Part shown: positions 1,317-53,536 of the stretch, piece after piece
How positions within the stretch are numbered: the stretch's first letter is position 1
Layout: each line of letters begins with the position of its first letter
From: Roseburia hominis
GTDB lineage: Bacteria > Bacillota > Clostridia > Lachnospirales > Lachnospiraceae
DNA: 64,000 nucleotides
Direction: 5' to 3'
NCBI GenBank assembly: GCA_040702975.1
Contig: CP159990.1
Location: 1,240,001 to 1,304,000 of the forward strand
The notes under the pieces: generated by a model
What the model was told of the DNA's origin: nothing
The model's input: the letters and a program-made list of their open reading frames with translations, nothing else
Database searches by the model: none
Position numbers and translations under genes: made by a program

Positions 1317-1936
1317 GGATTGCAGTTCTGGTATCCGGCGGAGGAACGAACCTGCAGGCGATCATCGATGCGGTGGAGAACGGCATGATTACGAATACCG
1401 AGATCGTCGGCGTGATCAGCAATAATAAAAATGCGTTTGCGCTTCAGAGGGCGGAAAATCATGGTATTTTTGCCCAGTGCATCTCGCCGAAGGATTTTGA
1501 GAGCAGAGAAGAGTTCAACCGGGTGTTCCTGGAGAAACTGAATGAATTGCATGCTGATCTGGTAGTTCTGGCAGGATTTTTGGTCGTGATTCCGGAAGCT
1601 ATGATCAGAGAGTACAGGAACCGGATCATCAATATCCACCCGTCACTCATTCCGTCTTTCTGCGGGACAGGCTATTACGGGCTTAAGGTGCATGAGGCGG
1701 CCCTTGCGCGCGGCGTGAAGGTCGTAGGAGCAACGGTGCATTTTGTAGATGAAGGGACGGATACCGGACCGATCATTTTGCAGAAAGCGGTCGAGGTGGA
1801 GGACGGCGATACGCCCGAGGTACTCCAGCGACGCGTGATGGAGCAGGCGGAATGGAAGATTCTGCCCAGAGCCATTGATCTGATCGCCAACGGAAAAGTG
1901 GAAGTTCAGGGCAAAAAAGTGAGGATCAGCAAGTAA
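1310..1936 (+). CDS. purN: phosphoribosylglycinamide formyltransferase
   Basis: Transfers a formyl group from 10-formyl-THF to GAR in purine synthesis. At 208 aa it has standard PurN length. The substrate loop GGGTNLQ is at residues 10-16, and the catalytic set expected for the family is present: Asn108 and His110 in NIHPSLIP, and Asp151 in DEGTDTGP. It overlaps purM by 7 nt. In many Clostridia purH follows purN; here a 72-nt gap leads straight to purD, so purH must lie elsewhere if present. Confidence 0.96.
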
Positions 1937-2008
1937 ATTTATCATAAAGGAAAGCGGCAAAAGGTATTTTGACGCGCATGATACATAAACGTACAGAAGG
2001 AGGTCGCT

Positions 2009-3280
2009 ATGAAGGTATTGATCGTAGGCGGTGGCGGAAGAGAGCACGCAATCGCATATTGTGTGGCAAAGAGCAGCAAGGTGGAAAAGATGTACTGTGC
2101 ACCGGGAAACGCAGGAATCGCAGAATTTGCAGAGTGCGTTCCGATTGGCGCGATGGAATTTGAAAAGCTGGTTGCTTTTGCGAAAGAAAATGAGATTGAC
2201 CTGGCAATCGTGGGAATGGACGACCCGCTGGTAGGCGGACTGGTAGATAAGTTTGAGGCGGCGGGAATCCGTGCGTTTGGACCGAGAAAGAATGCGGCGA
2301 TTCTGGAGGGAAGTAAAGCATTTTCCAAGGATCTGATGAAAAAATACGATATCCCGACTGCGGCCTATGAGAACTTTGAAAATGCCGAAGAGGCCCTTGC
2401 TTATCTGGAAACAGCAAAATTCCCGATTGTGCTTAAGGCGGACGGCCTGGCTCTGGGAAAAGGCGTGCTGATCTGCAATACTCTGGAAGAGGCAAAAGAG
2501 GGCGTGCAGACGATCATGCTTGATAAAAAATTCGGCGATTCCGGAAATACCATGGTCGTAGAAGAGTTTATGACCGGACGTGAGGTTTCCGTACTTTCAT
2601 TCGTTGATGGAAAGACGATAAAGACCATGACCAGCGCACAGGATCACAAACGTGCGAAAGATGGCGATCAGGGACTTAACACCGGCGGAATGGGAACATT
2701 TTCACCGAGCCCGTTCTATACCGACGAAGTAGATGCGTTTTGTAAGAAATATATTTACCAGAAGACCGTAGATGCGATGCGAGGAGAGGGCAGAGAGTTC
2801 AAGGGAATCATTTTCTTCGGACTGATGCTGACGCCGGACGGACCGAAGGTTCTGGAGTACAATGCCAGATTTGGCGATCCGGAAGCGCAGGTCGTTCTGC
2901 CGAGAATGAAGAATGATCTGATCGATGTGATTGAGGCATGTATCGACGGAACCCTGGATCAGGTGGACTTAGAGTTCGAGGACAATGCGGCTGTCTGCGT
3001 CGTGCTGGCGTCCGACGGATATCCGCTTTCTTATGAGAAGGGACTTCCAATCAGCGGACTTGACGAGTTCAAAAAGCATGACGGATACTATTGTTTCCAT
3101 GCCGGAACCAAATTCGACGGCGATACGATCGTGACAAATGGCGGACGTGTGCTTGGAATTACGGCAAAGGGAAGTGATCTTAAGGAGGCGCGTGCGAATG
3201 CGTACAAGGCTACCGAATGGGTAGAGTTCGCAAATAAATATATGCGTCACGATATCGGAAAGGCGATCGACGAGGCGTAG
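2009..3280 (+). CDS. purD: phosphoribosylamine-glycine ligase (GAR synthetase)
   Basis: ATP-grasp ligase that joins glycine to phosphoribosylamine, forming GAR. At 423 aa it is full length. The N-terminal KVLIVGGGGREHAI segment, the central ATP-grasp region with GGMGTFSP, and the metal-binding FGDPE motif (EYNARFGDPEAQ) are all visible. The ATG has an ideal site, agaaggaggtcgct. It is the last gene of the operon; a Rho-independent terminator follows about 40 nt after the stop. Confidence 0.97.
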   Translation: MKVLIVGGGGREHAIAYCVAKSSKVEKMYCAPGNAGIAEFAECVPIGAMEFEKLVAFAKENEIDLAIVGMDDPLVGGLVDKFEAAGIRAFGPRKNAAILEGSKAFSKDLMKKYDIPTAAYENFENAEEALAYLETAKFPIVLKADGLALGKGVLICNTLEEAKEGVQTIMLDKKFGDSGNTMVVEEFMTGREVSVLSFVDGKTIKTMTSAQDHKRAKDGDQGLNTGGMGTFSPSPFYTDEVDAFCKKYIYQKTVDAMRGEGREFKGIIFFGLMLTPDGPKVLEYNARFGDPEAQVVLPRMKNDLIDVIEACIDGTLDQVDLEFEDNAAVCVVLASDGYPLSYEKGLPISGLDEFKKHDGYYCFHAGTKFDGDTIVTNGGRVLGITAKGSDLKEARANAYKATEWVEFANKYMRHDIGKAIDEA

Positions 3281-3317
3281 GGTAGGCGACCATGGCCTAA
3301 AACAGAATAAAGTAATT

Positions 3318-3368
3318 ACCCGCAGGAATGCATGTTAGATGGGAAAATATGCATCTTGCGGGTTTTTT
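3318..3368 (+). terminator. Rho-independent terminator after the pur operon
   Basis: Stem of ACCCGCA with TGCGGGT, extended by an inner ATGCAT pair, followed by a run of six T. It ends the purE-purM-purN-purD transcript. Confidence 0.8.
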
Positions 3369-3522
3369 GTTGTGGTGAAATAAGGGGAATGGTATGATGG
3401 ACAAAAGAAATATGCTGAAAATAAAGAAAAGGCGAAAAAAGTGAGAGAGTAATAATTGGAATTTCCGGAAGGGAAATGGATTGGGATATGAAGGAAACTG
3501 TAGGAGGGAAGGAAATCTGGGA

Positions 3523-8344: not shown

Positions 8345-8697
8345 GTAGTTGAGGAAAAGGCAGTGAGAAAGAGGAGTATGTATCAAGGTCCGAAGAAGAG
8401 AGAGCCGCTCAGGGGCTGAGAGGCGGCTTACGGGAAACGGGTACAGAAGGTAGCTTTTGAGCCGGGTATCTGAACAGGGCGGGTGACGAAGCGTTGCCAT
8501 AACATTAGGATACCACGGAGTGGTTTACGTTATAGAACTATAAGTGCCATGAGTTTGAAAAGGCCAGATGTTGACAGACTATAAGGCAGGCAGTGAGAGA
8601 GCAACCGTTAGGAAGGCTCTTGGATAGATCTCATGGAATAAAGGTGGTACCACGTAAATTTACGCCCTTTACGTATTGTAAGGGGCGTCTTTTTTAT
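8345..8697 (+). promoter_or_regulatory. T-box leader (tRNA-Val sensing) of valS
   Basis: A leader of about 350 nt between promoter and valS. The T-box core AAGGTGGTACCACG is at 8641-8654; its TGGT (8645-8648) can pair with an ACCA tRNA end, consistent with the A discriminator of tRNA-Val. A terminator (ACGCCCTTTAC with GTAAGGGGCGT and a T run, 8662-8696) follows and is mutually exclusive with the antiterminator. The upstream part contains paired segments consistent with stems I-III. Uncharged tRNA-Val would allow readthrough into valS. The specifier codon was not assigned. Confidence 0.9.
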
Positions 8698-8777: not shown

Positions 8778-11426
8778 ATGAGCAAGAATCTGGAAAAAAC
8801 GTATAATCCAAAAGAAATTGAACCGAAACTTTATGAAAGATGGTGTGAGAAGAAATATTTTCACGCAGAGGTAGACCGAGACAGGAAACCATTTACCACT
8901 GTGATGCCGCCTCCGAACATTACCGGAAAGCTGCATATGGGGCATGCGCTTGATAACACCTTGCAGGATATCCTGATCCGCTATAAGAGAATGCAGGGAT
9001 ATAATGCACTCTGGATTCCGGGAACCGACCATGCGGCGATTTCCACCGAGGTCAAGGTCACCAATCAGCTCAAGGCAGAAGGCATTGACAAAAAGGAGCT
9101 TGGACGTGAGGGATTCCTTGAGAGGACCTGGCAGTGGAAGGAAGAGTACGCAGGAACGATTGAGAAGCAGCTTGAGAAGCTGGGGGTATCCTGCGACTGG
9201 GACAGAGAACGTTTCACTATGGACGAGGGCTGCTCGAAAGCGGTGGAAGAAGTGTTTATCCGCTTATATGAAAAAGGATACATTTATAAAGGCTCCCGTA
9301 TCATCAACTGGTGTCCGGTATGTAAGACCTCCCTTTCCGATGCAGAGGTCGAGCATGAGGAGCAGGCAGGCCATTTCTGGCACATTAAGTACCCGATTAT
9401 CGGGACGGACAAGTTTCTGGAGATTGCGACCACACGTCCGGAGACGATGCTGGGAGACACGGCCATCGCTGTGCACCCGGACGATGAGCGTTATACGGAC
9501 ATCGTAGGAAAGAAGGCGCTGCTTCCTCTGGTGGGAAGAGAGATTCCGATCGTGGCAGATGCTTATGTAGATAAAGAGTTCGGAACCGGTGCAGTAAAGA
9601 TTACCCCGGCCCATGACCCGAATGACTTTGAAGTTGGAAAGCGTCACAATCTGCCGGAAATCAACATTATGAATGACGATGCTACCATCGTGGAAGGCTA
9701 TGGCAAATATTCAGGCATGGAGCGCTACGAGGCAAGAGGGGCCATCGTAGAAGACTTAAAGGAGCAGGGCTACCTGGTTCGCATTGAAGAACATAGCCAC
9801 AACGTAGGAACACATGACCGTTGCCACACCACCGTGGAACCGCTGATCAAGCAGCAGTGGTTCGTGAAGATGGACGAACTGGCAAAGCCGGCAATCGAGG
9901 CACTAAGGAAGGGCGAACTAAGATTTGTGCCGGAGCGTTTTGATAAGATATATCTGCACTGGCTGGAGAATATCCGCGACTGGTGTATTTCCCGTCAGAT
10001 CTGGTGGGGACACCGGATTCCGGCATACTACTGTGACGAGTGCGGAAAGTTTGTAGTGGCAAGAGAGATGCCGGAGGTTTGCCCGCACTGTGGCTGCAAA
10101 CATTTTACGCAGGACGAGGACACTCTGGATACCTGGTTCAGTTCCGCATTGTGGCCGTTCTCTACGCTTGGCTGGCCGGATCAGACCGAAGATCTGGATT
10201 ATTTCTATCCGACAGATGTGTTGGTGACCGGATACGATATCATTTTCTTCTGGGTAATCCGTATGGTATTTTCCGGATATGCCCACACCGGCAAATCTCC
10301 GTTCCATACCGTACTGATCCACGGACTGGTGAGAGATTCCCAGGGCCGTAAGATGAGCAAATCTCTGGGAAATGGAATCGATCCGCTGGAGATCATCGAC
10401 GAGTACGGAGCAGATGCGTTGCGTCTGACCCTGGTGACCGGTAATGCACCCGGAAATGATATGCGTTTCTACAATGAACGTGTAGAGGCAAGCCGGAATT
10501 TTGCAAACAAAGTATGGAATGCTTCCCGGTTTATCCTGATGAATATGGAGGATAAGGTAATCTCCAGACCGGACGAAAAAGATCTGGAACTGGCAGATAA
10601 GTGGATTCTCTCCAAGGTAAATACGCTTGCCAAAGACGTAACTGACAATATGGAGAAATTCGAGCTGGGAATTGCCGTACAGAAGGTGTATGATTTTATA
10701 TGGGACGAATTCTGTGACTGGTATATTGAGCTGGTAAAATACAGGATCTACCATGCAAATGACAATTATAAGAGCGCGAATGCCGCACTTTGGACGCTTA
10801 GGACAGTTCTGGGGAATGCGCTTAAGATGCTGCACCCGTTCATGCCGTTCGTGACAGAGGAAATCTACGGTGCACTGGTACCGGAGGAAGAGTCACTGAT
10901 GATGTCCGACTGGCCGCAGTATACGGAAGATTGGAACTATCCTGAGGCCGAGACGATCACGGACCATATGAAGGAAGTGATCCGTGGAGTCAGAAATGCC
11001 TGTGCTGAGATGAATGTACCGCCGAGCCGGAAGGCAAAAGTGTATGTGGTTACCGAGCGCGAGGATTTGCAGAAGGGGCTTGGTGTGCTTGCGCAGTCTG
11101 CGTGTCCGCTGATGAGCGCTTCGGAACTGGAGGTACAGGCAGATAAGAGCGGAATTGCCGGGGACGCGGTATCAATCGTAGTGCCGGACGCTTCCGTTTA
11201 CGTTCCGCTGGAGGAGCTGATCGACTTCGAGCAGGAGATTGAGCGTCTGACAAAAGAGGAAGAAAAGCTGAAAAAAGAACTTGCACGTTCCCGGGGAATG
11301 CTGAGCAACGAAAAATTCTTAAGCAAGGCGCCGCAGGCTAAGGTGGAAGAAGAAAAAGCAAAACTGGAAAAATATGAACAGATGATGGCGCAGGTGAAAG
11401 ACCGCCTTGCAAATTTGAGAAAGTAG
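8778..11426 (+). CDS. valS: valyl-tRNA synthetase
   Basis: Class I aminoacyl-tRNA synthetase charging tRNA-Val, 882 aa, full length. The HIGH-type motif is [12 protein letters not shown] near residue 50 and the KMSKS motif is [11 protein letters not shown] near residue 525. Between them lies the CP1 editing domain ([17 protein letters not shown]) that removes mischarged threonine; the C-terminal 65 residues form the coiled coil typical of ValRS ([19 protein letters not shown]). Start ATG behind gaggagga. Controlled by the T-box leader. Confidence 0.98.
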
Positions 11427-13956: not shown

Positions 13957-15423
13957 TTGCAGTATGAGGAAGCAGTCCGCTATATAGAGGACATACCGAA
14001 ATTTACGGAAAAGCACACATTTGAACACACAAGAGAATTTATGAGAAGGTTGGGGAATCCCTGCCGCACGAAGAAGGTCCTTCATGTGGCGGGAACCAAC
14101 GGAAAGGGAAGCGTCTGCGCATATATGCAGGCGATTCTTCTTTGTTGCTCTGCATGCCTAAGTGAACGTCCAGTGGACGTTCATCTCGGCAGCCAAGCAT
14201 ACCTAAGTGAAGGTCCGGTGGACCTTCATCTCGGCGGCCAGACAGATTCAAGTGGGGGAGTTGGTCTATTTACCTCTCCGCATTTGGTGAAGCTTAATGA
14301 GCGTATCCGAATCAACGGTACGGAGATTTCAGATGAAGATTTTTTGAAGGTATTTGAGAAAGTTCTAAGTGTAGTACATGAGATGGAAGCAGACGGAATC
14401 GCACACCCGTCCTATTTCGAGTTTCTCTATGGCATGGGAATGACCGCCTTTGAACGGGCCGGCGTGGAGTATGTGATTTTGGAGACAGGGCTTGGCGGAA
14501 GGCTTGATGCGACGAATTCCTTTGAGACACCGCTGGTTTCCGTGATCACGTCCATAGGACTTGACCACACGGCGATTCTCGGGGATACGATATCCCAGAT
14601 TGCGGCAGAAAAAGCCGGGATTATCCGGCGCGGAGTTCCAGTCATTTATGACGGAAGTGTGCCCGAAGCTGCGGCTGTCATTCGACAAACGGCGGAGAAA
14701 GTGGGCGCACCTTGTAGAGAAGTCGCAAATTGCGCGTTCAAAATTCTGGAAATTACGGAGAAAGATATTGCTTTTTCTCTGGTGAATGAGTATGATAATA
14801 ATACCGTGTGGAGGGTAAGAGGGACGGGCGTTTATCAAGCGATGAACGCCACGCTTGCCATCACGGCGATGAAAGAGATATTTGGACATGCCCGGGAAGG
14901 GGAAATTTCCGGCAGAATAGACGACGTAAGATGGAGCAAAGCACTCTCTGAGGTGACCTGGCCCGGAAGAATGGAGGAAGTGCTGCCCGGGGTGATCCTG
15001 GACGGAGCTCACAATCTTGCTGCCGTTCGCAAATTTGTAGAGAGTGTGAGAGCACAGGACGCGCTAAGCACAGCAGAAGGGCAGGAGAGGACTGGAAATG
15101 CCACGGACGCCAAAAAGAGAGTGATCTTGTTTTCCGCGGTTGCGGAGAAGGATTACCGCCACATGATAGAGGAGCTGCTTACGGGCGTGCCTGCCGATGC
15201 CTATGTGGTGACGGGAATCCAGGATAAAAGAGGAGCCGGAATCAGTGATCTGGCCGCAGTATTTGCACGGTATACCAAAAGTCCAATCTATCCGGTGGCA
15301 GATCTTTCGCAGGCGTTTGATAGAGCGATGGAAGAAAAGGGAGAGGACGGAAGACTGTATTGTCTCGGTTCTTTGTATCTGATTGGAGAGTTAAAAGCGT
15401 TAATAGGAGGCAGACATGCTTGA
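13957..15423 (+). CDS. folC: folylpolyglutamate synthase with an in-frame palindromic-repeat insertion
   Basis: Mur-ligase-family enzyme that adds glutamates to folates, 488 aa. P-loop VAGTNGKGSV (44-53), GLFTSPHLVKLNERI after the insert, LGGRLDATN and the C-terminal ligand domain with DGAHN are all present. The spacing from the P-loop to GLFTSPH is about 50 residues instead of about 16: the additional stretch (about residues 62-98) is encoded by two tandem units of the palindromic repeat (14152-14234) read in frame. The start is TTG behind gagggag. Because the rest of the protein is intact over 1.4 kb it is probably functional, with an extended surface loop between helix 1 and strand 2 of the ATPase domain. 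Confidence 0.9.
   Translation: MQYEEAVRYIEDIPKFTEKHTFEHTREFMRRLGNPCRTKKVLHVAGTNGKGSVCAYMQAILLCCSACLSERPVDVHLGSQAYLSEGPVDLHLGGQTDSSGGVGLFTSPHLVKLNERIRINGTEISDEDFLKVFEKVLSVVHEMEADGIAHPSYFEFLYGMGMTAFERAGVEYVILETGLGGRLDATNSFETPLVSVITSIGLDHTAILGDTISQIAAEKAGIIRRGVPVIYDGSVPEAAAVIRQTAEKVGAPCREVANCAFKILEITEKDIAFSLVNEYDNNTVWRVRGTGVYQAMNATLAITAMKEIFGHAREGEISGRIDDVRWSKALSEVTWPGRMEEVLPGVILDGAHNLAAVRKFVESVRAQDALSTAEGQERTGNATDAKKRVILFSAVAEKDYRHMIEELLTGVPADAYVVTGIQDKRGAGISDLAAVFARYTKSPIYPVADLSQAFDRAMEEKGEDGRLYCLGSLYLIGELKALIGGRHA
14152..14234 (+). repeat. two tandem palindromic repeat units inside folC
   Basis: Unit 1 is 14152-14189 and unit 2 is 14197-14234, 45 bp apart. Each is GCATRCCTAAGTG, then a hairpin, then CATCTCGG. 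The hairpin arms are AACGTCC/GGACGTT in unit 1 and AAGGTCC/GGACCTT in unit 2, so a base pair differs with compensation. They are translated as CLSERPVDVHLG and YLSEGPVDLHLG without a stop. Confidence 0.9.
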
Positions 15424-15550
15424 TTTTGAAGAAGAACTTAAAAAGTTCAAGCCAAGTTTGGAAGTAGAAGATATTGAGAAGGCAGTGTATGAGGAAGATC
15501 TGACCGATATGACGGATATTTTCCGCGAGATGCTGGAGAAAACGAAATAG
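15416..15550 (+). CDS. small acidic protein, 44 aa, unknown
   Basis: A short ORF beginning MLDFEEELKKFKPS and ending REMLEKTK, overlapping the end of folC by 8 nt with a good Shine-Dalgarno (taggaggcag) 5 nt before the ATG. It is strongly charged, predicted helical, without membrane or secretion signals. Coupling to folC and the strong ribosome site argue that it is expressed; no family is recognised. Confidence 0.7.
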   Translation: MLDFEEELKKFKPSLEVEDIEKAVYEEDLTDMTDIFREMLEKTK

Positions 15551-15597
15551 GGTGCGGCAGAAACAGCAGCCGTTTTAGATAGATAAGGGAGAGTTCA

Positions 15598-16992
15598 ATG
15601 GAGTATACGGAAAAACTCGCGTACCAGTCGAATTACTGGTATAATGACGGGCTGAAGAAGGCGAATATCCGGGATTTATCCGGCGCGATCGTATCCCTTC
15701 GGAAGAGCCTGCAATTTAACAGGGAGAATGTTATGGCGAGGAACCTTCTGGGACTTGTGTACTACGGACGGGGAGAAGTCGTGGAAGCGCTGGTGGAATG
15801 GATCATCAGCAAGAATTTCAAGTCCTATGAGAATATTGCCAATTACTATATCAAAAAGGTGCAGGAGACGCCGAGTGAATTAGAGACGATCAACCAGGCA
15901 ATACATAAGTATAATCAGTGTCTGGTATATTGTCGGCAGAACGGGGAGGATCTGGCGATTATCCAGCTTAAGAAGGTTATCACGGCGCACCCCGGTTTTT
16001 TGAAAGCGCATCAGCTTCTGGCGCTTTTGTATTTGCAGACGGAGCAGTACGCAAAGGCGAGACAGATCTTGAGGCGCGCCCATAAGATGGACATCACCAA
16101 TGAGATCACGCTGAACTATATGCATGAGCTTAGTAAGCTCCGAAGCCAGAAAGTGGCGAAGCTAAAGGAAGAAAAAGGGCAGCATACGGTCAGCTATACC
16201 CTGGGAAATGAGACGATTATCCAGCCGGTATCCGCAAGTCTTAAGGACAATGCGGCGATGCTGACGATCGTCAATATCGCGATCGGTATCGCGGTAGGCG
16301 CCGCCGTTGTGTGGTTTCTGATCGCACCGGCCGTGAGTCAGAAGGAGTCGCAGGTGGCGAATAAGAGCGTGATTGCTCTAAGCGAGCAGCTTGCCGCCAG
16401 GGATACGCAGATTGATGCGCTGAAAAAAGAACTGGAAGGGTACCGTTCCACGAGTGACGAGGCGGAAAGCGCGATTCAGACAGCGGGTTCCATTCAGGAG
16501 AGCTATGAAGCCCTTCTTAAGGTTTCCCAACAGTTTGACGGGGGCAACACCAGCAATGCGGACATGCTGGAGGGACTCCTTACCGTGAATCCGGAAGCGC
16601 TGGGAGAGCAGGCGAAGGCGATTTATGACGAGATAGCCGGCGAGTTGTTCCCGGTGATGTGTAAACGTCTTTACGCCCAGGCGAAGGAAAGTATGTCAGA
16701 GAATGATTATGCGGCCGCCGTGACGGCTCTTGAGAAAGTCGTGCGAATGGACGAGGGCTATGAGGAAGGAGAAGCATTGAAGCTGTTGGCTGATGCTTAC
16801 GCAGGGAAAAATGATGCGGAGAATGCCAAGGCGACGTATGAGAAGGTCGTGCAGAATTACGCCGGAACGCAGGCGGCGGCAGACGCCCAGAAAGCATTGA
16901 GCGGTGTGAACCCTGCCGGAGATCAGAAAAGTGGAGATGAGCAAGGCCAGGATAACGGCGACCGGGGAAACGATGAGGAAAACCAGGAATAG
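15598..16992 (+). CDS. TPR-repeat membrane protein
   Basis: A 464-aa protein with TPR-like helical repeats in the cytosolic N-terminal half (DLSGAIVSLRKSLQFNRENV; EQYAKARQILRRAHKMD), one transmembrane helix near residue 225-245 (IVNIAIGIAVGAAVVWFLIA), a short coiled coil (LSEQLAARDTQIDALKKELEG), and further TPRs in the outer half (YAAAVTALEKVVRMDEGYEE). The last 35 residues are acidic and Gln/Asn/Gly-rich. Probably a scaffold at the cell envelope; no enzyme domain is visible. Start ATG after ataagggagagttca. A terminator follows at 17057. Confidence 0.78.
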   Translation: MEYTEKLAYQSNYWYNDGLKKANIRDLSGAIVSLRKSLQFNRENVMARNLLGLVYYGRGEVVEALVEWIISKNFKSYENIANYYIKKVQETPSELETINQAIHKYNQCLVYCRQNGEDLAIIQLKKVITAHPGFLKAHQLLALLYLQTEQYAKARQILRRAHKMDITNEITLNYMHELSKLRSQKVAKLKEEKGQHTVSYTLGNETIIQPVSASLKDNAAMLTIVNIAIGIAVGAAVVWFLIAPAVSQKESQVANKSVIALSEQLAARDTQIDALKKELEGYRSTSDEAESAIQTAGSIQESYEALLKVSQQFDGGNTSNADMLEGLLTVNPEALGEQAKAIYDEIAGELFPVMCKRLYAQAKESMSENDYAAAVTALEKVVRMDEGYEEGEALKLLADAYAGKNDAENAKATYEKVVQNYAGTQAAADAQKALSGVNPAGDQKSGDEQGQDNGDRGNDEENQE

Positions 16993-17056
16993 GCGGCTGT
17001 AAAAGGGCTTCCGGGAATACAAGAATATGAAAAAGGTGAATCATGATACGAATGAG

Positions 17057-17088
17057 AAGGATATGCAGAATATGCATGTCCTTTTTTA
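17057..17088 (+). terminator. Rho-independent terminator after the TPR gene
   Basis: AAGGATATGCA pairs with TGCATGTCCTT, followed by six T. A 22-nt repeat shared with 8690 starts within the T run. Confidence 0.75.
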
Positions 17089-17220
17089 TTTCATAGGAAA
17101 GTGCTTAGCATTTTCCTATAAAATAAAACGCACTTCGTGCGACAATGTACAGCTGCGGGAAGGAAATTGCTGCTACGCAGCCCGCTCGCGCACGAAGAAT
17201 GTGCGTGCGCACATTCTATT
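17084..17220. repeat. composite palindromic element upstream of spoIIA
   Basis: The first part, 17084-17128, is an inverted repeat with about 20-bp arms (TTTTATTTCATAGGAAAGTGC versus its complement, two mismatches). The second part, about 17120-17220, has imperfect arms AAAATA...CGCACTTCGTGCG and CGCACGAAGAATGTGCG...TATTTT, and includes a perfect palindrome AGAATGTGCG-TG-CGCACATTCT. No plausible coding frame. It looks like a small non-autonomous element or relic. Confidence 0.6.
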
Positions 17221-17230
17221 TTGTTGCCAA

Positions 17231-17313
17231 GCATACCTGAGTGAACGTCCGGTGGACCTTCATCTCGGTTGCCAAGCATACCTAAGTGAAGGTCCGGTGG
17301 ACCTTCATCTCGG
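17231..17313 (+). repeat. two tandem palindromic repeat units upstream of spoIIAA
   Basis: Units 17231-17268 and 17276-17313, again 45 bp apart. Unit 2 matches the folC unit 2 over all 38 nt. Unit 1 has a mixed hairpin (AACGTCC with GGACCTT), suggesting partial conversion between subtypes. They end 40 nt before the spoIIAA start. Confidence 0.9.
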
Positions 17314-17353
17314 TATTCAAAAAATATATACCCAGAATAAGGAGGAGTTACAG

Positions 17354-17662
17354 ATGGATTATCAGGTGGAGGAGAATTGTTTGACCATATTTCTCCCAAA
17401 AGAGGTGGATCATCACAACGCGGAGGACATACGCAGGGAGGCAGATAAAGTGATTGAGCAGAAGCACATCAAGCATGTAATCTTCGATTTTCATAGTACG
17501 GATTTTATGGACAGTTCAGGAATCGGGGTGATTATGGGAAGGTACAGGCAGATTTATCTGCTGGGCGGCGATGTGTGGGCGGTCCACGCCAGCGAGCGAA
17601 TGAAAAGAATCCTGAATATGTCAGGGGTAACCAAAATCATGCAGGTATATGAGGAGGAGTAA
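17354..17662 (+). CDS. spoIIAA: anti-sigma F factor antagonist SpoIIAA
   Basis: STAS-domain protein of 102 aa that, when dephosphorylated, binds SpoIIAB and frees sigma-F in the forespore. The phosphoserine motif FMDSSGIGVIMGRY is intact. The ATG at 17354 follows aggaggagtt; an upstream extension of the frame runs only through palindromic repeats and is rejected. First gene of the classic spoIIAA-spoIIAB-sigF operon. Confidence 0.93.
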   Translation: MDYQVEENCLTIFLPKEVDHHNAEDIRREADKVIEQKHIKHVIFDFHSTDFMDSSGIGVIMGRYRQIYLLGGDVWAVHASERMKRILNMSGVTKIMQVYEEE

Positions 17663-17666
17663 AACG

Positions 17667-18095
17667 ATGGAACACGCAAACGAAATGGAACTGATTTTTG
17701 ACAGTAATTCCGAAAATGAAAGTTTTGCCAGAGTGACGGTGGCGGCGTTCATGACGCAGCTCAACCCGCTTCTGGAAGAGGTTTCTGATGTGAAGACCGC
17801 CGTGTCGGAGGCGGTGACGAATGCGATTATCCACGGCTATGACGGGAAGGAAGGGAAAATCCGTATCCGGTGCCGTATGGAGAAAAGTGTGCTGTACATA
17901 GAGGTGGAGGATCAGGGCAAAGGCATTGAAGATGTGGCGAGGGCGATGGAGCCGCTTTATACCACAAGGCCGGAGCTGGACCGGTCCGGAATGGGATTTG
18001 CCTTCATGGAAGCCTTTATGGACGAGGTAGCGGTAGAATCTGCACCTGGGGAAGGAACCTGCGTGAAGATGAAGAAAAACATTGGAGAAAGGTAG
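17667..18095 (+). CDS. spoIIAB: anti-sigma F factor SpoIIAB
   Basis: GHKL-fold serine kinase and anti-sigma factor, 142 aa. N-box AVSEAVTNAIIHGYDG, G1-box DQGKGI, and G2-like SGMGFAFMEAFMD are present. It phosphorylates SpoIIAA and holds sigma-F inactive. The ATG at 17667 is 4 nt after the spoIIAA stop with gaggaggag in front; an earlier in-frame start would overlap spoIIAA and lack a site. Confidence 0.94.
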   Translation: MEHANEMELIFDSNSENESFARVTVAAFMTQLNPLLEEVSDVKTAVSEAVTNAIIHGYDGKEGKIRIRCRMEKSVLYIEVEDQGKGIEDVARAMEPLYTTRPELDRSGMGFAFMEAFMDEVAVESAPGEGTCVKMKKNIGER

Positions 18096-23095: not shown

Positions 23096-23106
23096 GCGGT
23101 TGCTGG

Positions 23107-23233
23107 GCATATCTGAAATGAGATTCAGTGGACTGTGTTTTGGTTGCTTGGCATACCTGAAATAGGTCCGGTGGTTTTTTGTTTCGGCTGCGGGGCATAC
23201 CTGAAATAAGATTCATCAGACCTACATCTTGGC
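23107..23233 (+). repeat. three degenerate palindromic repeat units
   Basis: Units start at GCATATC (23107), GCATACC (23151) and GCATACC (23195), period 44 bp, each ending in TTGG or TCGG. The hairpins are eroded (for example GGTCCGGTGG-like core in the middle unit). The first begins about 12 nt after the terminator T run. The remaining sequence to 23250 shows no gene. Confidence 0.7.
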
Positions 23234-27151: not shown

Positions 27152-27691
27152 ATGATTTTGACAACATTATGTTATATTGAAAATGAAGATTCCTACCTGA
27201 TGCTCCATAGAGTCAAAAAGGAAAAAGATGTCAATAAGGACAAATGGATTGGGATAGGAGGAAAGTTCGAGCCGGACGAAAGCCCGGAGGAATGTCTTCT
27301 TCGCGAGGCGGCAGAAGAGACGGGGCTTCGTCTTACCTCCTTTCAGATGCGTGGTGTTCTGACCTTTTCCTGCTGCCCGGCGGCGCATGAGAAGAAGGAA
27401 GAAGCGTGGGATCTGGAGTATATTTTCCTGTACACTGCAGACGGTTATGAGGGCGAGATCAGGGAATGTTCGGAAGGTACGCTGGAATGGGTGAAAAAAT
27501 CAGAGATTGAATCTCTCAATATCTGGGAAGGCGACAAGATCTTTTTCCGGCTGATTCGGGAGAATGCGCCGTTCTTCTCCCTGAAACTGAGTTATGAGGG
27601 GGACGAGCTCATCTACGCGGCGCTGGACGGCAGACAGATCGTGCCGGCAGAGCAGCCGGGCACATCTGAGTTGCCAGGCATACTTAAGTGA
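27152..27691 (+). CDS. NUDIX hydrolase (MutT-like)
   Basis: A 179-aa nucleotide pyrophosphohydrolase with a complete Nudix box G-x5-E-x7-REUxEExGU (GKFEPDESPEECLLREAAEETGL). Likely substrate is an oxidised or excess (d)NTP, as for the 8-oxo-dGTP diphosphatase relatives. The ATG at 27152 follows agaggaaa; the frame upstream to 26987 is riboswitch RNA. The last nine residues and the stop codon are supplied by a palindromic repeat that entered the 3' end of the gene. Confidence 0.85.
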   Translation: MILTTLCYIENEDSYLMLHRVKKEKDVNKDKWIGIGGKFEPDESPEECLLREAAEETGLRLTSFQMRGVLTFSCCPAAHEKKEEAWDLEYIFLYTADGYEGEIRECSEGTLEWVKKSEIESLNIWEGDKIFFRLIRENAPFFSLKLSYEGDELIYAALDGRQIVPAEQPGTSELPGILK

Positions 27692-27810
27692 AGGTCTGGC
27701 GGAGCTTTATCTCGATTGCCAAGCATACCTGAGTTCTGGTAGACCTTTATCCCGGTAAATGTCCGATGGAGGTTCATATGAGCAGTCGGGCACACTTGAA
27801 ATAAGGTCGG
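27678..27810 (+). repeat. palindromic repeat cluster, partly degenerate
   Basis: Units begin at 27678 (GCATACTTAAGTGAAGG) and 27723 (GCATACCTGAG), 45 bp apart, with remnants up to about 27810 (GTCCGATGGAGGTTCAT). The first unit overlaps the end of the NUDIX gene. Confidence 0.75.
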
Positions 27811-40520: not shown

Positions 40521-40550
40521 AAAGGTATTCTTTAGGATACCTTTTCTTAT
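40521..40550 (+). terminator. terminator after the HicB-like gene
   Basis: AAAGGTATTC pairs with GGATACCTTTT, followed by TTTTCTTATT. A palindromic repeat unit starts 6 nt later. Confidence 0.7.
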
Positions 40551-40556
40551 TGTCAG

Positions 40557-40594
40557 GCATACCTAAGTGAACGTCCAGTGGACGTTCATCCCGG
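40557..40594 (+). repeat. single palindromic repeat unit
   Basis: GCATACCTAAGTG, hairpin AACGTCC-AGT-GGACGTT, CATCCCGG. It is nearly identical to folC unit 1, directly after a terminator. Confidence 0.88.
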
Positions 40595-50632: not shown

Positions 50633-50645
50633 CTTGTGCTGCCAG

Positions 50646-50679
50646 GCATACCAGAGTAAAGGTCCGGTGGACCTACAGG
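50646..50679 (+). repeat. single degenerate palindromic repeat unit
   Basis: GCATACCAGAGTAAAGG-TCCGGTGGACCT, with the 3' part lost. Again it sits directly behind a terminator. Confidence 0.75.
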
Positions 50680-52219: not shown

Positions 52220-53536
52220 ATGGCAAAATATAAAATCGTTCATTACCTCAACCAGTTCTTCGGCGGAATCGGTGGAGAGGATAAAGCAGATTTTGAACCG
52301 GAAGTTCGCGAAGAAATCATCGGACCGGGAGCTGCAATGGCTTCAGCTTTAGGGGAAGATTATGAGATCGTTGCTACAGTGATCTGTGGTGACAACTATT
52401 TCGGTGAGAACCTGGACAAAGCAACGGATACCATTGTTGAGATGGTTAAGAAATATGAGCCGGACGTATTCGTGGCCGGACCGGCGTTCAATGCAGGACG
52501 TTACGGTGTTGCCTGTGGTACGATCTGTAAAGCAGTAGAAGAGAGAATGGGAATTCCGGTACTTACCGGTATGTATATCGAGAACCCGGGCGCTGATATG
52601 TTCAAGAAGGACATCATCACGGTTTCCACTGGAAACTCCGCTGCGACCCTTCGGAAATCGATGCCGAAGATTGTGAATCTGATTAAGAAGATGGCGACAG
52701 GCGAGGAAATCTTAGGACCTTCTATTGAAGGATACTTAGAGAGAGGCATCCGTGTAAATTATTTCGCGGAAGAAAGAGGCGCAACCCGTGGTATGGATAT
52801 GTTGATCAAGAAGATGGCAGGGGAACCATTTGAGACCGACCTTCCGATGCCGAAGTTTGACCGTGTACCGCCTGCTGAGCCGATCAAAGACATCAAAACA
52901 GCGAAACTGGCAATTGTGACTTCCGGTGGTATCGTTCCGCAGGGGAATCCGGATCACATCGAGTCCTCCAATGCGACCAAGTTTGGCTTCTATTCCATCG
53001 AAGGTATGGACAGAATGTCGGCAGATGATTTCATGACTGTTCATGGTGGATATGACAGACAGTTCGTACTGAAAGATCCGAACCTGGTAGTACCGCTTGA
53101 CGTTCTTCGCAAGCTGGAAAAATCGGGCGAGTTCGGCGAACTTTTGAATTACTTTGCAGCTACGACAGGAACCGGAACAGCGACAGGATCTGCTGCCAAA
53201 TTCGGCGATGAGATCGGTAAGAAATTTATCGAGGAAGGCGTAGATGGCGTTCTCCTCGTCAGCACATGAGGTACCTGTACACGTTGCGGTGCAACGATGG
53301 TAAAAGGTATTGAAAAATACGGTATCCCGGTAGTACATCTTGCTACGGTAGTGCCGATTTCCAGGACGATCGGTGCGAACAGGATTATTCCGGCGGTTGG
53401 TATTCCTTATCCGCTGGGCGACCCGACTCAGAATGCAGAGGATTCTTATAAGATTCGTGAGAAACTGGTCAGAAGAGCACTTAAGGTACTTCAGACTCCG
53501 GTTTCAGAACAGACTGTATTTGAGAAAGATTTCTAA
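52220..53536 (+). CDS. grdB: selenoprotein component B gamma subunit (GrdB/F/H), UGA decoded as Sec
   Basis: One 438-aa protein read through TGA at 53267-53269 (residue 350). Conventional ORF calling splits it into 349 aa plus 88 aa. The UGA lies in the family motif U-x2-C-x2-C (VST-U-GTCTRCG), and both halves match: N-terminal KIVHYLNQFFGGIGGE, C-terminal IPVVHLATVVPISRTIGANRIIP. With it the length fits the family (about 436 aa). A SECIS-like hairpin follows the UGA. The Sec accepts the substrate from the Schiff base and passes it to selenoprotein A. Start ATG behind aaaggggg, 20 nt after grdE. Confidence 0.93.
53270..53310 (+). ncRNA. bacterial SECIS element in grdB
   Basis: CGTTGC (53282-53287) pairs exactly with GCAACG (53291-53296) around a GGT loop, starting 13 nt after the UGA. 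The apical GU at 19-21 nt is the spacing recognised by SelB in bacteria. Confidence 0.75.

Follow-up and report, generated by a model that had tools for sequence, protein, structure and literature searches.

A dispersed 45-nt hairpin repeat carried in frame by folC and other genes of Roseburia hominis

In a 64,000-nt stretch of Roseburia hominis DNA (the window), the gene folC carries in frame two copies of a short hairpin repeat that is dispersed through the genome. Judging from comparison with relatives, the repeat has been gained at unrelated sites, mostly as whole 45-nt units where the spacing can be judged. We read it as a non-autonomous mobile element that would depend on a machine acting in trans, would use stem-loops as its targets and would be tolerated in frame by proteins, a reading to which we give a probability of about 0.7. 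The expansion is recent enough for empty sites to be present in genus mates, and target and polarity can therefore be read directly.

The repeat unit and its copies

In the 45-nt unit, a 5′ flank of 12 nt is followed by an imperfect hairpin of 33 nt in which two mismatches are conserved (consensus TTGCCAAGCATACCTAAGTGAACGTCCGGTGGACGTTCATCTCGG); the unit begins with TTGCC and ends with CTCGG, and CGTC is present only inside the stem. The first-pass annotation had given a unit length of 38 nt, which has to be corrected: the units measure 45 nt and stand head to tail. Stem positions are paired in 95.9% of cells over 82 distinct units, both sides have changed in six pairs, and the covariation score was reached by none of 500 shuffles; the stem is maintained via compensatory change. 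When examined as a rho-independent terminator, the unit has no T-run after the stem and ends in ATCTCGG. Rfam scans of the whole window and, at E up to 1, of 14000-17700 returned no family for the repeat. The motif matches the window four times and 100 shuffles not once. Downstream of folC, the window contains the following features.

17196-17217, plus strand: terminator-like stem-loop ahead of the second pair (terminator-like scan)
17224-17268, plus strand: first unit of the intergenic pair (covariance model, CM, R1, 71.6 bits)
17269-17313, plus strand: second unit of the intergenic pair (CM R1, 76.3 bits)
23100-23232, plus strand: diverged three-unit array with a period of about 44 nt, behind a terminator-like stem judged by eye (TRF; weak CM matches, E 0.004-0.51)
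27671-27755, plus strand: two diverged units (CM R1, 41.4 and 35.9 bits)
40550-40594, plus strand: single unit behind a terminator-like stem judged by eye (CM R1, 67.5 bits)
50639-50679, plus strand: diverged unit behind a terminator-like stem judged by eye (CM R1, 27 bits)

The pair at 17224-17313, already recognised at first pass as near-identical and outside genes, precedes a gene that presumably encodes a STAS-like protein (named from its sequence).

In the single-contig genome of 4,257,935 bp, the motif core at up to three mismatches gives 88 matches and its reversed control none. A longer degenerate motif gives 129 matches, and scans of 60 other relatives and of 396 other family genomes (overlapping sets) found none. 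The covariance model finds at least 159 matches at E up to 0.1, with the best 150 of 1,998 candidates scored. At least 150 units, listed from the 159 matches, form 119 arrays; among the matches listed, 93 arrays are single, 22 double, 3 triple and 1 quadruple, all arrays are direct rather than inverted, and 28 of the 31 adjacent pairs have a spacing of 45. Targets, polarity and peptides were analysed on a set of 80 arrays (up to five mismatches, from 58 genome stretches and the window), with 64 outside ORFs of 100 aa or more and 16 inside such ORFs, some of which are probably spurious.

A looser motif, comprising the flank and the hairpin apex, occurs in 8 of 61 relatives, and a slightly stricter version of it in 9 of 160 family genomes, both counts including the own genome; outside the latter, several of the matches are apparently fortuitous. 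The better cousins consist of a flank and a hairpin ending in T's and are terminator-like, and by eye L155, L157, L158 and L162 themselves lie behind a terminator-like stem, while L160 does not. The covariance model gives weak matches (E up to 1) in all seven of seven genus mates, the best, at 9.5e-8, in G005. The attribution of the element to Lachnospiraceae at first pass thus holds for the looser cousins and fails for the strict motif, which is present in no other scanned genome. At the settings used, the repeat had no match in phage or plasmid collections or in viral contigs, and no earlier description of it was found in the literature searched, which covered subscription journals sparsely and included the accessible part of PMC12306157.

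Insertions in folC and other genes

The folC locus has the following features.

13957-15423, plus strand: folC, TTG start as listed; ORF of 488 aa, interrupted in frame (NCBIfam folC, 313 bits; PDB FPGS matches)
14112-14133, plus strand: stem-loop that is the insertion target in folC (terminator-like scan; also in genus mates without the insert)
14134-14144, plus strand: T-rich tail between the target stem-loop and the first unit (sequence, relatives' DNA, terminator-like scan)
14145-14189, plus strand: unit 1, 45 nt (CM R1, 68.3 bits)
14190-14234, plus strand: unit 2, 45 nt (CM R1, 71.7 bits)
14235-14252, plus strand: probable degenerate 5′ flank of a third unit (10/18 identical; net +102 nt)

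The palindromic pair reported inside folC is real, and the frame of 488 codons is open with both 45-nt units inside it. The spacing between the NGKGS and SPH motifs is 53 residues versus 19 in relatives, a net gain of 34 residues (102 nt), in agreement with the enlarged P-loop-SPH spacing and the roughly 34 added residues of the first-pass annotation. The 102 nt correspond to two units plus about 18 nt, 10 of them identical to the 5′ flank of the unit, minus about 6 nt, and a piece of a third unit probably follows unit 2. Alignment of FolC across relatives, a check proposed with that annotation, found the insert absent from all 21 readable stretches (17 of the first 20, plus L118, L119, L104 and L105), a set in which L099 and L114 are one organism and from which the unmatched L106, whose FolC has 426 residues like L103-L105, is excluded. 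In five genus mates (L113-L117), the folC DNA is near-identical up to the insertion point and then continues without insert. Both the stem-loop and its T-rich tail occur in insert-free genus mates, and are therefore older than the insert.

In an AlphaFold2 model of FolC (mean pLDDT 80.8), residues 69-98 fall below 50. This stretch of very low confidence, in which the insert falls, sits between a helix (50-68) and a strand (101-105), where the insert had been placed at first pass. From its intact frame, FolC with the insert is likely still working. The genome also has a second FolC-like gene without insert (G000:C1:1604917-1605690, L140), 33% identical over the matched part.

Eight genes with an in-gene unit were compared with orthologues, namely folC, prdA, yfhO, DUF4869, mtaA, hemZ, sfsA-mutY and 5-FTHF cyclo-ligase. 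A gain of 30 residues is seen in yfhO against both bridging relatives (L188 and L202; L194 and L195 unbridged), in mtaA at three of three loci from two genomes, in sfsA-mutY in three of four comparisons (30, 30, 30 and 22; L190 unbridged) and in hemZ against L207, one of four (17, 34 and 39 against L192, L197 and L208). DUF4869 gains 31 residues against one relative, and prdA, in a variable linker, 12 to 24 across six loci. The insert in 5-FTHF cyclo-ligase is antisense, adds 23 residues against three relatives and is probably one unit plus a piece of a second. Gains that are not multiples of 15 are thus those of folC, 5-FTHF cyclo-ligase, DUF4869 and prdA, some of hemZ and one of sfsA-mutY. 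For the in-gene copy at 3021244 homology stops at the insert, which leaves it without orthologue support, and the copy in a histidine kinase (3408721) gave no orthologue match.

All sense inserts lie in a single open sense frame encoding the peptide CQAYLSERPVDVHLG and its variants, and this peptide recurs in unrelated genes. Since the dispersed unit lies in frame in seven further orthologue-compared genes besides folC, the earlier suggestion of a protein-invading element like the Rickettsia palindromic elements (RPEs) is supported. In-gene inserts would survive since the unit length of 45 is divisible by three and a stop-free sense frame exists; each unit would lengthen the protein by about 15 residues at a site that tolerates it. 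The further suggestion of selection for a stop-free frame finds no support: 90 of 97 other copies are open versus a neutral mean of 85.4 (sd 3.1), a count reached by 9.6% of neutral simulations.

By eye, hemZ of G003 (L192) has at the same place another member of the looser family (TTGCCAAGCAAACG, hairpin and T's), behind the same stem and T-run as the own hemZ insert; the shared site may be a hot spot, or the insertion may be old and have diverged, and the flank variant fits both. An empty site is also seen within the genome, in another dispersed repeat of which the copy at 17080-17222 is empty and the relative in L052 holds one 45-nt unit. This other repeat is about 140 nt long, contains a GGAAAGTG..CATTTTCC stem, AAATAAAACGCACTT and GGAAATTGCTGCTA, and has two copies in the stretches examined. 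The SfsA and MutY parts form one ORF in several genus mates (L063, L187, L198, L205 and L206 compared), and in the own genome the repeat occupies the linker; a fusion made by the repeat was rejected, as genus mates have single ORFs with both parts.

Target preference and replication-strand polarity

Both the folC pair and the intergenic pair lie directly 3′ of a same-strand terminator-like stem-loop (14112-14133 and 17196-17217), and the scanned stretch has seven terminator-like sites versus 2.8 in shuffles. Across the 80 arrays, a T-run of at least 4 falls in the last 12 nt in 62.5% versus 5.7% of 1,600 random positions, drawn from the same stretches rather than from matched intergenic positions, and a stem plus T-run lies upstream in 57.5% versus 5.5%. 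When the 12 arrays with a unit-like upstream neighbour are set aside, the values are 64.7% and 57.4% (n=68). A T-run lies within 3 nt of the unit in 65%, versus 8.1% at random positions. Furthermore, the ten nucleotides preceding each of ten in-gene sites together contain 48 T's, compared with 23.7 (sd 4.8) at positions of the same genes, the sites in sfsA-mutY and at 3021244 (two of the ten) not being T-rich. No T-run of at least 4 in the last 12 nt is found in 30 of the 80 arrays, and none of at least 3 within 16 nt in 19; the preference for a stem-loop with T-run is a majority trend, not a property of every array. Where an insert lies within a gene, the spot is in most cases terminator-like or rich in T's; this suggests that a protein is invaded because a target structure happens to be present in its gene.

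The GC skew of the genome stretches examined switches sign in the interval 347-383 kb and again in the interval 2,500-2,734 kb. With these points taken as origin and terminus, and ORFs of at least 100 aa standing in for genes, 71 of the 80 arrays have leading-strand polarity (that is, the lagging-strand template) versus 288 of 399 ORFs (p 6e-4). Every one of the 43 intergenic arrays whose upstream ORF is on the same strand has this polarity, as do 14 of 21 whose upstream ORF is on the opposite strand. Among the matches listed, 106 of 119 arrays have it, or 104 to 107 with shifted boundaries.

We infer that the repeat would enter while the lagging-strand template is single-stranded and the stem-loop can fold, through a mobilising machine acting in trans. 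Each new unit would itself be a stem-loop and thus a target for the next, which would give rise to the head-to-tail arrays.

Candidate machinery and known elements

Group IIC introns reportedly insert directly behind rho-independent terminators and into the lagging-strand template (PMC8919778, accessible part), and recognise a DNA stem-loop (PMC10190682, accessible part). The repeat shares with them its placement after terminator-like stem-loops, for the majority of arrays, and its lagging-strand-template polarity; it differs in having no ribozyme domains D1-D6, maturase or coding capacity, and in its length of 45 nt. One group II intron was found in the genome among the best 150 of 318 candidates scored (L233, about 1510-3372; G000:C1, about 1086.5-1088.4 kb); it is apparently intact and, by eye, sits behind a terminator-like stem and ATTTTTAG. 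It matches Rfam D1-D4-3, which we take to be class C, D1-D4-1 and D5. Its 439-aa maturase contains no domains other than RT and maturase; it scores 881 bits against PDB chain 7uim_D, across 427 residues, and 366 bits against the GsI-IIC RT. The 7uim entry is presumably the group IIC structure of PMC10190682. The intron is probably group IIC, a class assignment held at that strength because it draws on these assumed identities of 7uim and D1-D4-3.

The ribonucleoprotein of a group IIC intron is the best candidate for the machine, at about one chance in three, since it shares the target choice and is present in the genome; its action in trans is a step that we infer. Its main rival is a putative single-strand transposase. 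On a more specific and doubtful view, the repeat may be a SINE-like hairpin RNA that uses the reverse transcriptase and target recognition of the resident group IIC intron, so that a 45-nt RNA would insert at the replication fork, behind stem-loops in the DNA, and, spanning 15 codons, could be read through by proteins. A likeness between the starts of unit and intron (TTGC) is too short to use. Because the repeat and group IIC introns choose targets alike, the question of what mobilises the repeat becomes testable.

The repeat could instead be a REP-like or IS200/IS605-like element that was moved on the lagging-strand template by a Y1 (HUH) transposase now lost or unrecognised, which we consider unlikely while giving it some weight. 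IS200/IS605 elements have hairpin ends and insert through single strands into the lagging template (PMC6006769, accessible part), features matched by the polarity of the repeat and by its hairpin with conserved mismatches, and the genome contains one Y1 gene of IS200/IS605 type, degenerate with two TGA (L067, G000:C1:3717846-3718213), without a flank or apex match beside it and, by eye, adjoining an apparent TnpB gene. However, no Y1 transposase was found associated with the repeat: none of the 22 Y1 rows, found in six of 10 genomes searched, has its flank and hairpin beside it (the flanks of some loci being cut by contig ends), with single stray matches near Y1 in L212, L225 and L227 only. 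Furthermore, G005, a 100% complete genome in a single contig, contains looser cousins yet no Y1 match, and the repeat has neither a GTAG nor a CGTC end tag and forms direct, not inverted, arrays.

Spread of a transcript-end or terminator module by recombination and slippage alone, without dedicated machinery, would agree with units that come after terminators, with cousins that are themselves terminator-like, with tandem arrays, which slippage could yield, and with gains that are not whole units. We judge it improbable, as gains are at unrelated sites, within genes and within another repeat family, and polarity tracks replication in 14 of the 21 arrays with an opposite-strand upstream ORF. FolC loops differ in length, which would suit an ordinary lineage-specific loop with chance similarity, or else an assembly artefact might be supposed. 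The absence of the motif from 100 shuffles, the presence of at least 150 copies in one contig and the recurrence of the same peptide in unrelated genes refute chance or artefact for the folC insert, and we give this reading next to no credence.

The mobile-element reading places the repeat beside several known families. Palindromic inserts that keep the reading frame have been described chiefly in Rickettsia, Wolbachia and certain REP-rich genomes (PMC3733652 and PMC3767692, accessible parts). RPEs are palindromic repeats that unrelated proteins carry in frame at exposed positions (PMC3767692; PMC3733652), measure 100-150 bp and lie at the same sites in orthologues, as far as the accessible part of PMC3767692 goes. 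The repeat likewise lies in frame in unrelated ORFs, with frames kept, in eight genes; unlike RPEs, its unit is 45 nt, tandem, mostly missing in relatives and placed behind stem-loops. REPs are short, high-copy and mostly 3′ of genes, with in-gene copies in several species, and for CGTC repeats, RPE-4 and RPE-6 among them, no transposase was found, according to the accessible part of PMC3733652. A short palindrome with at least 150 units and with 64 of 80 arrays outside ORFs of at least 100 aa resembles them, but membership among REP/RAYT elements (GTAG/CGTC) was rejected, given the missing end tag and the lack of a repeat-flanked Y1 among the 22 rows; the direct arrays are a further difference. 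By these tests, the repeat enters proteins like an RPE and chooses its sites like a group IIC intron, and belongs to neither. The kind of element is already known, from in-gene REPs of several species and the RPEs of Rickettsia (PMC3733652 and PMC3767692, accessible parts); within the reach of the literature searches, what is new is the repeat family, its host group, and a target and polarity that can be read.

Elsewhere in the window, an Rfam SECIS_4 match at 53270-53307 (62.9 bits) points to a possible selenoprotein gene. A T-box leader at 8354-8672 lies ahead of a long ORF (8778-11426) that, from its sequence, we take to encode valyl-tRNA synthetase.
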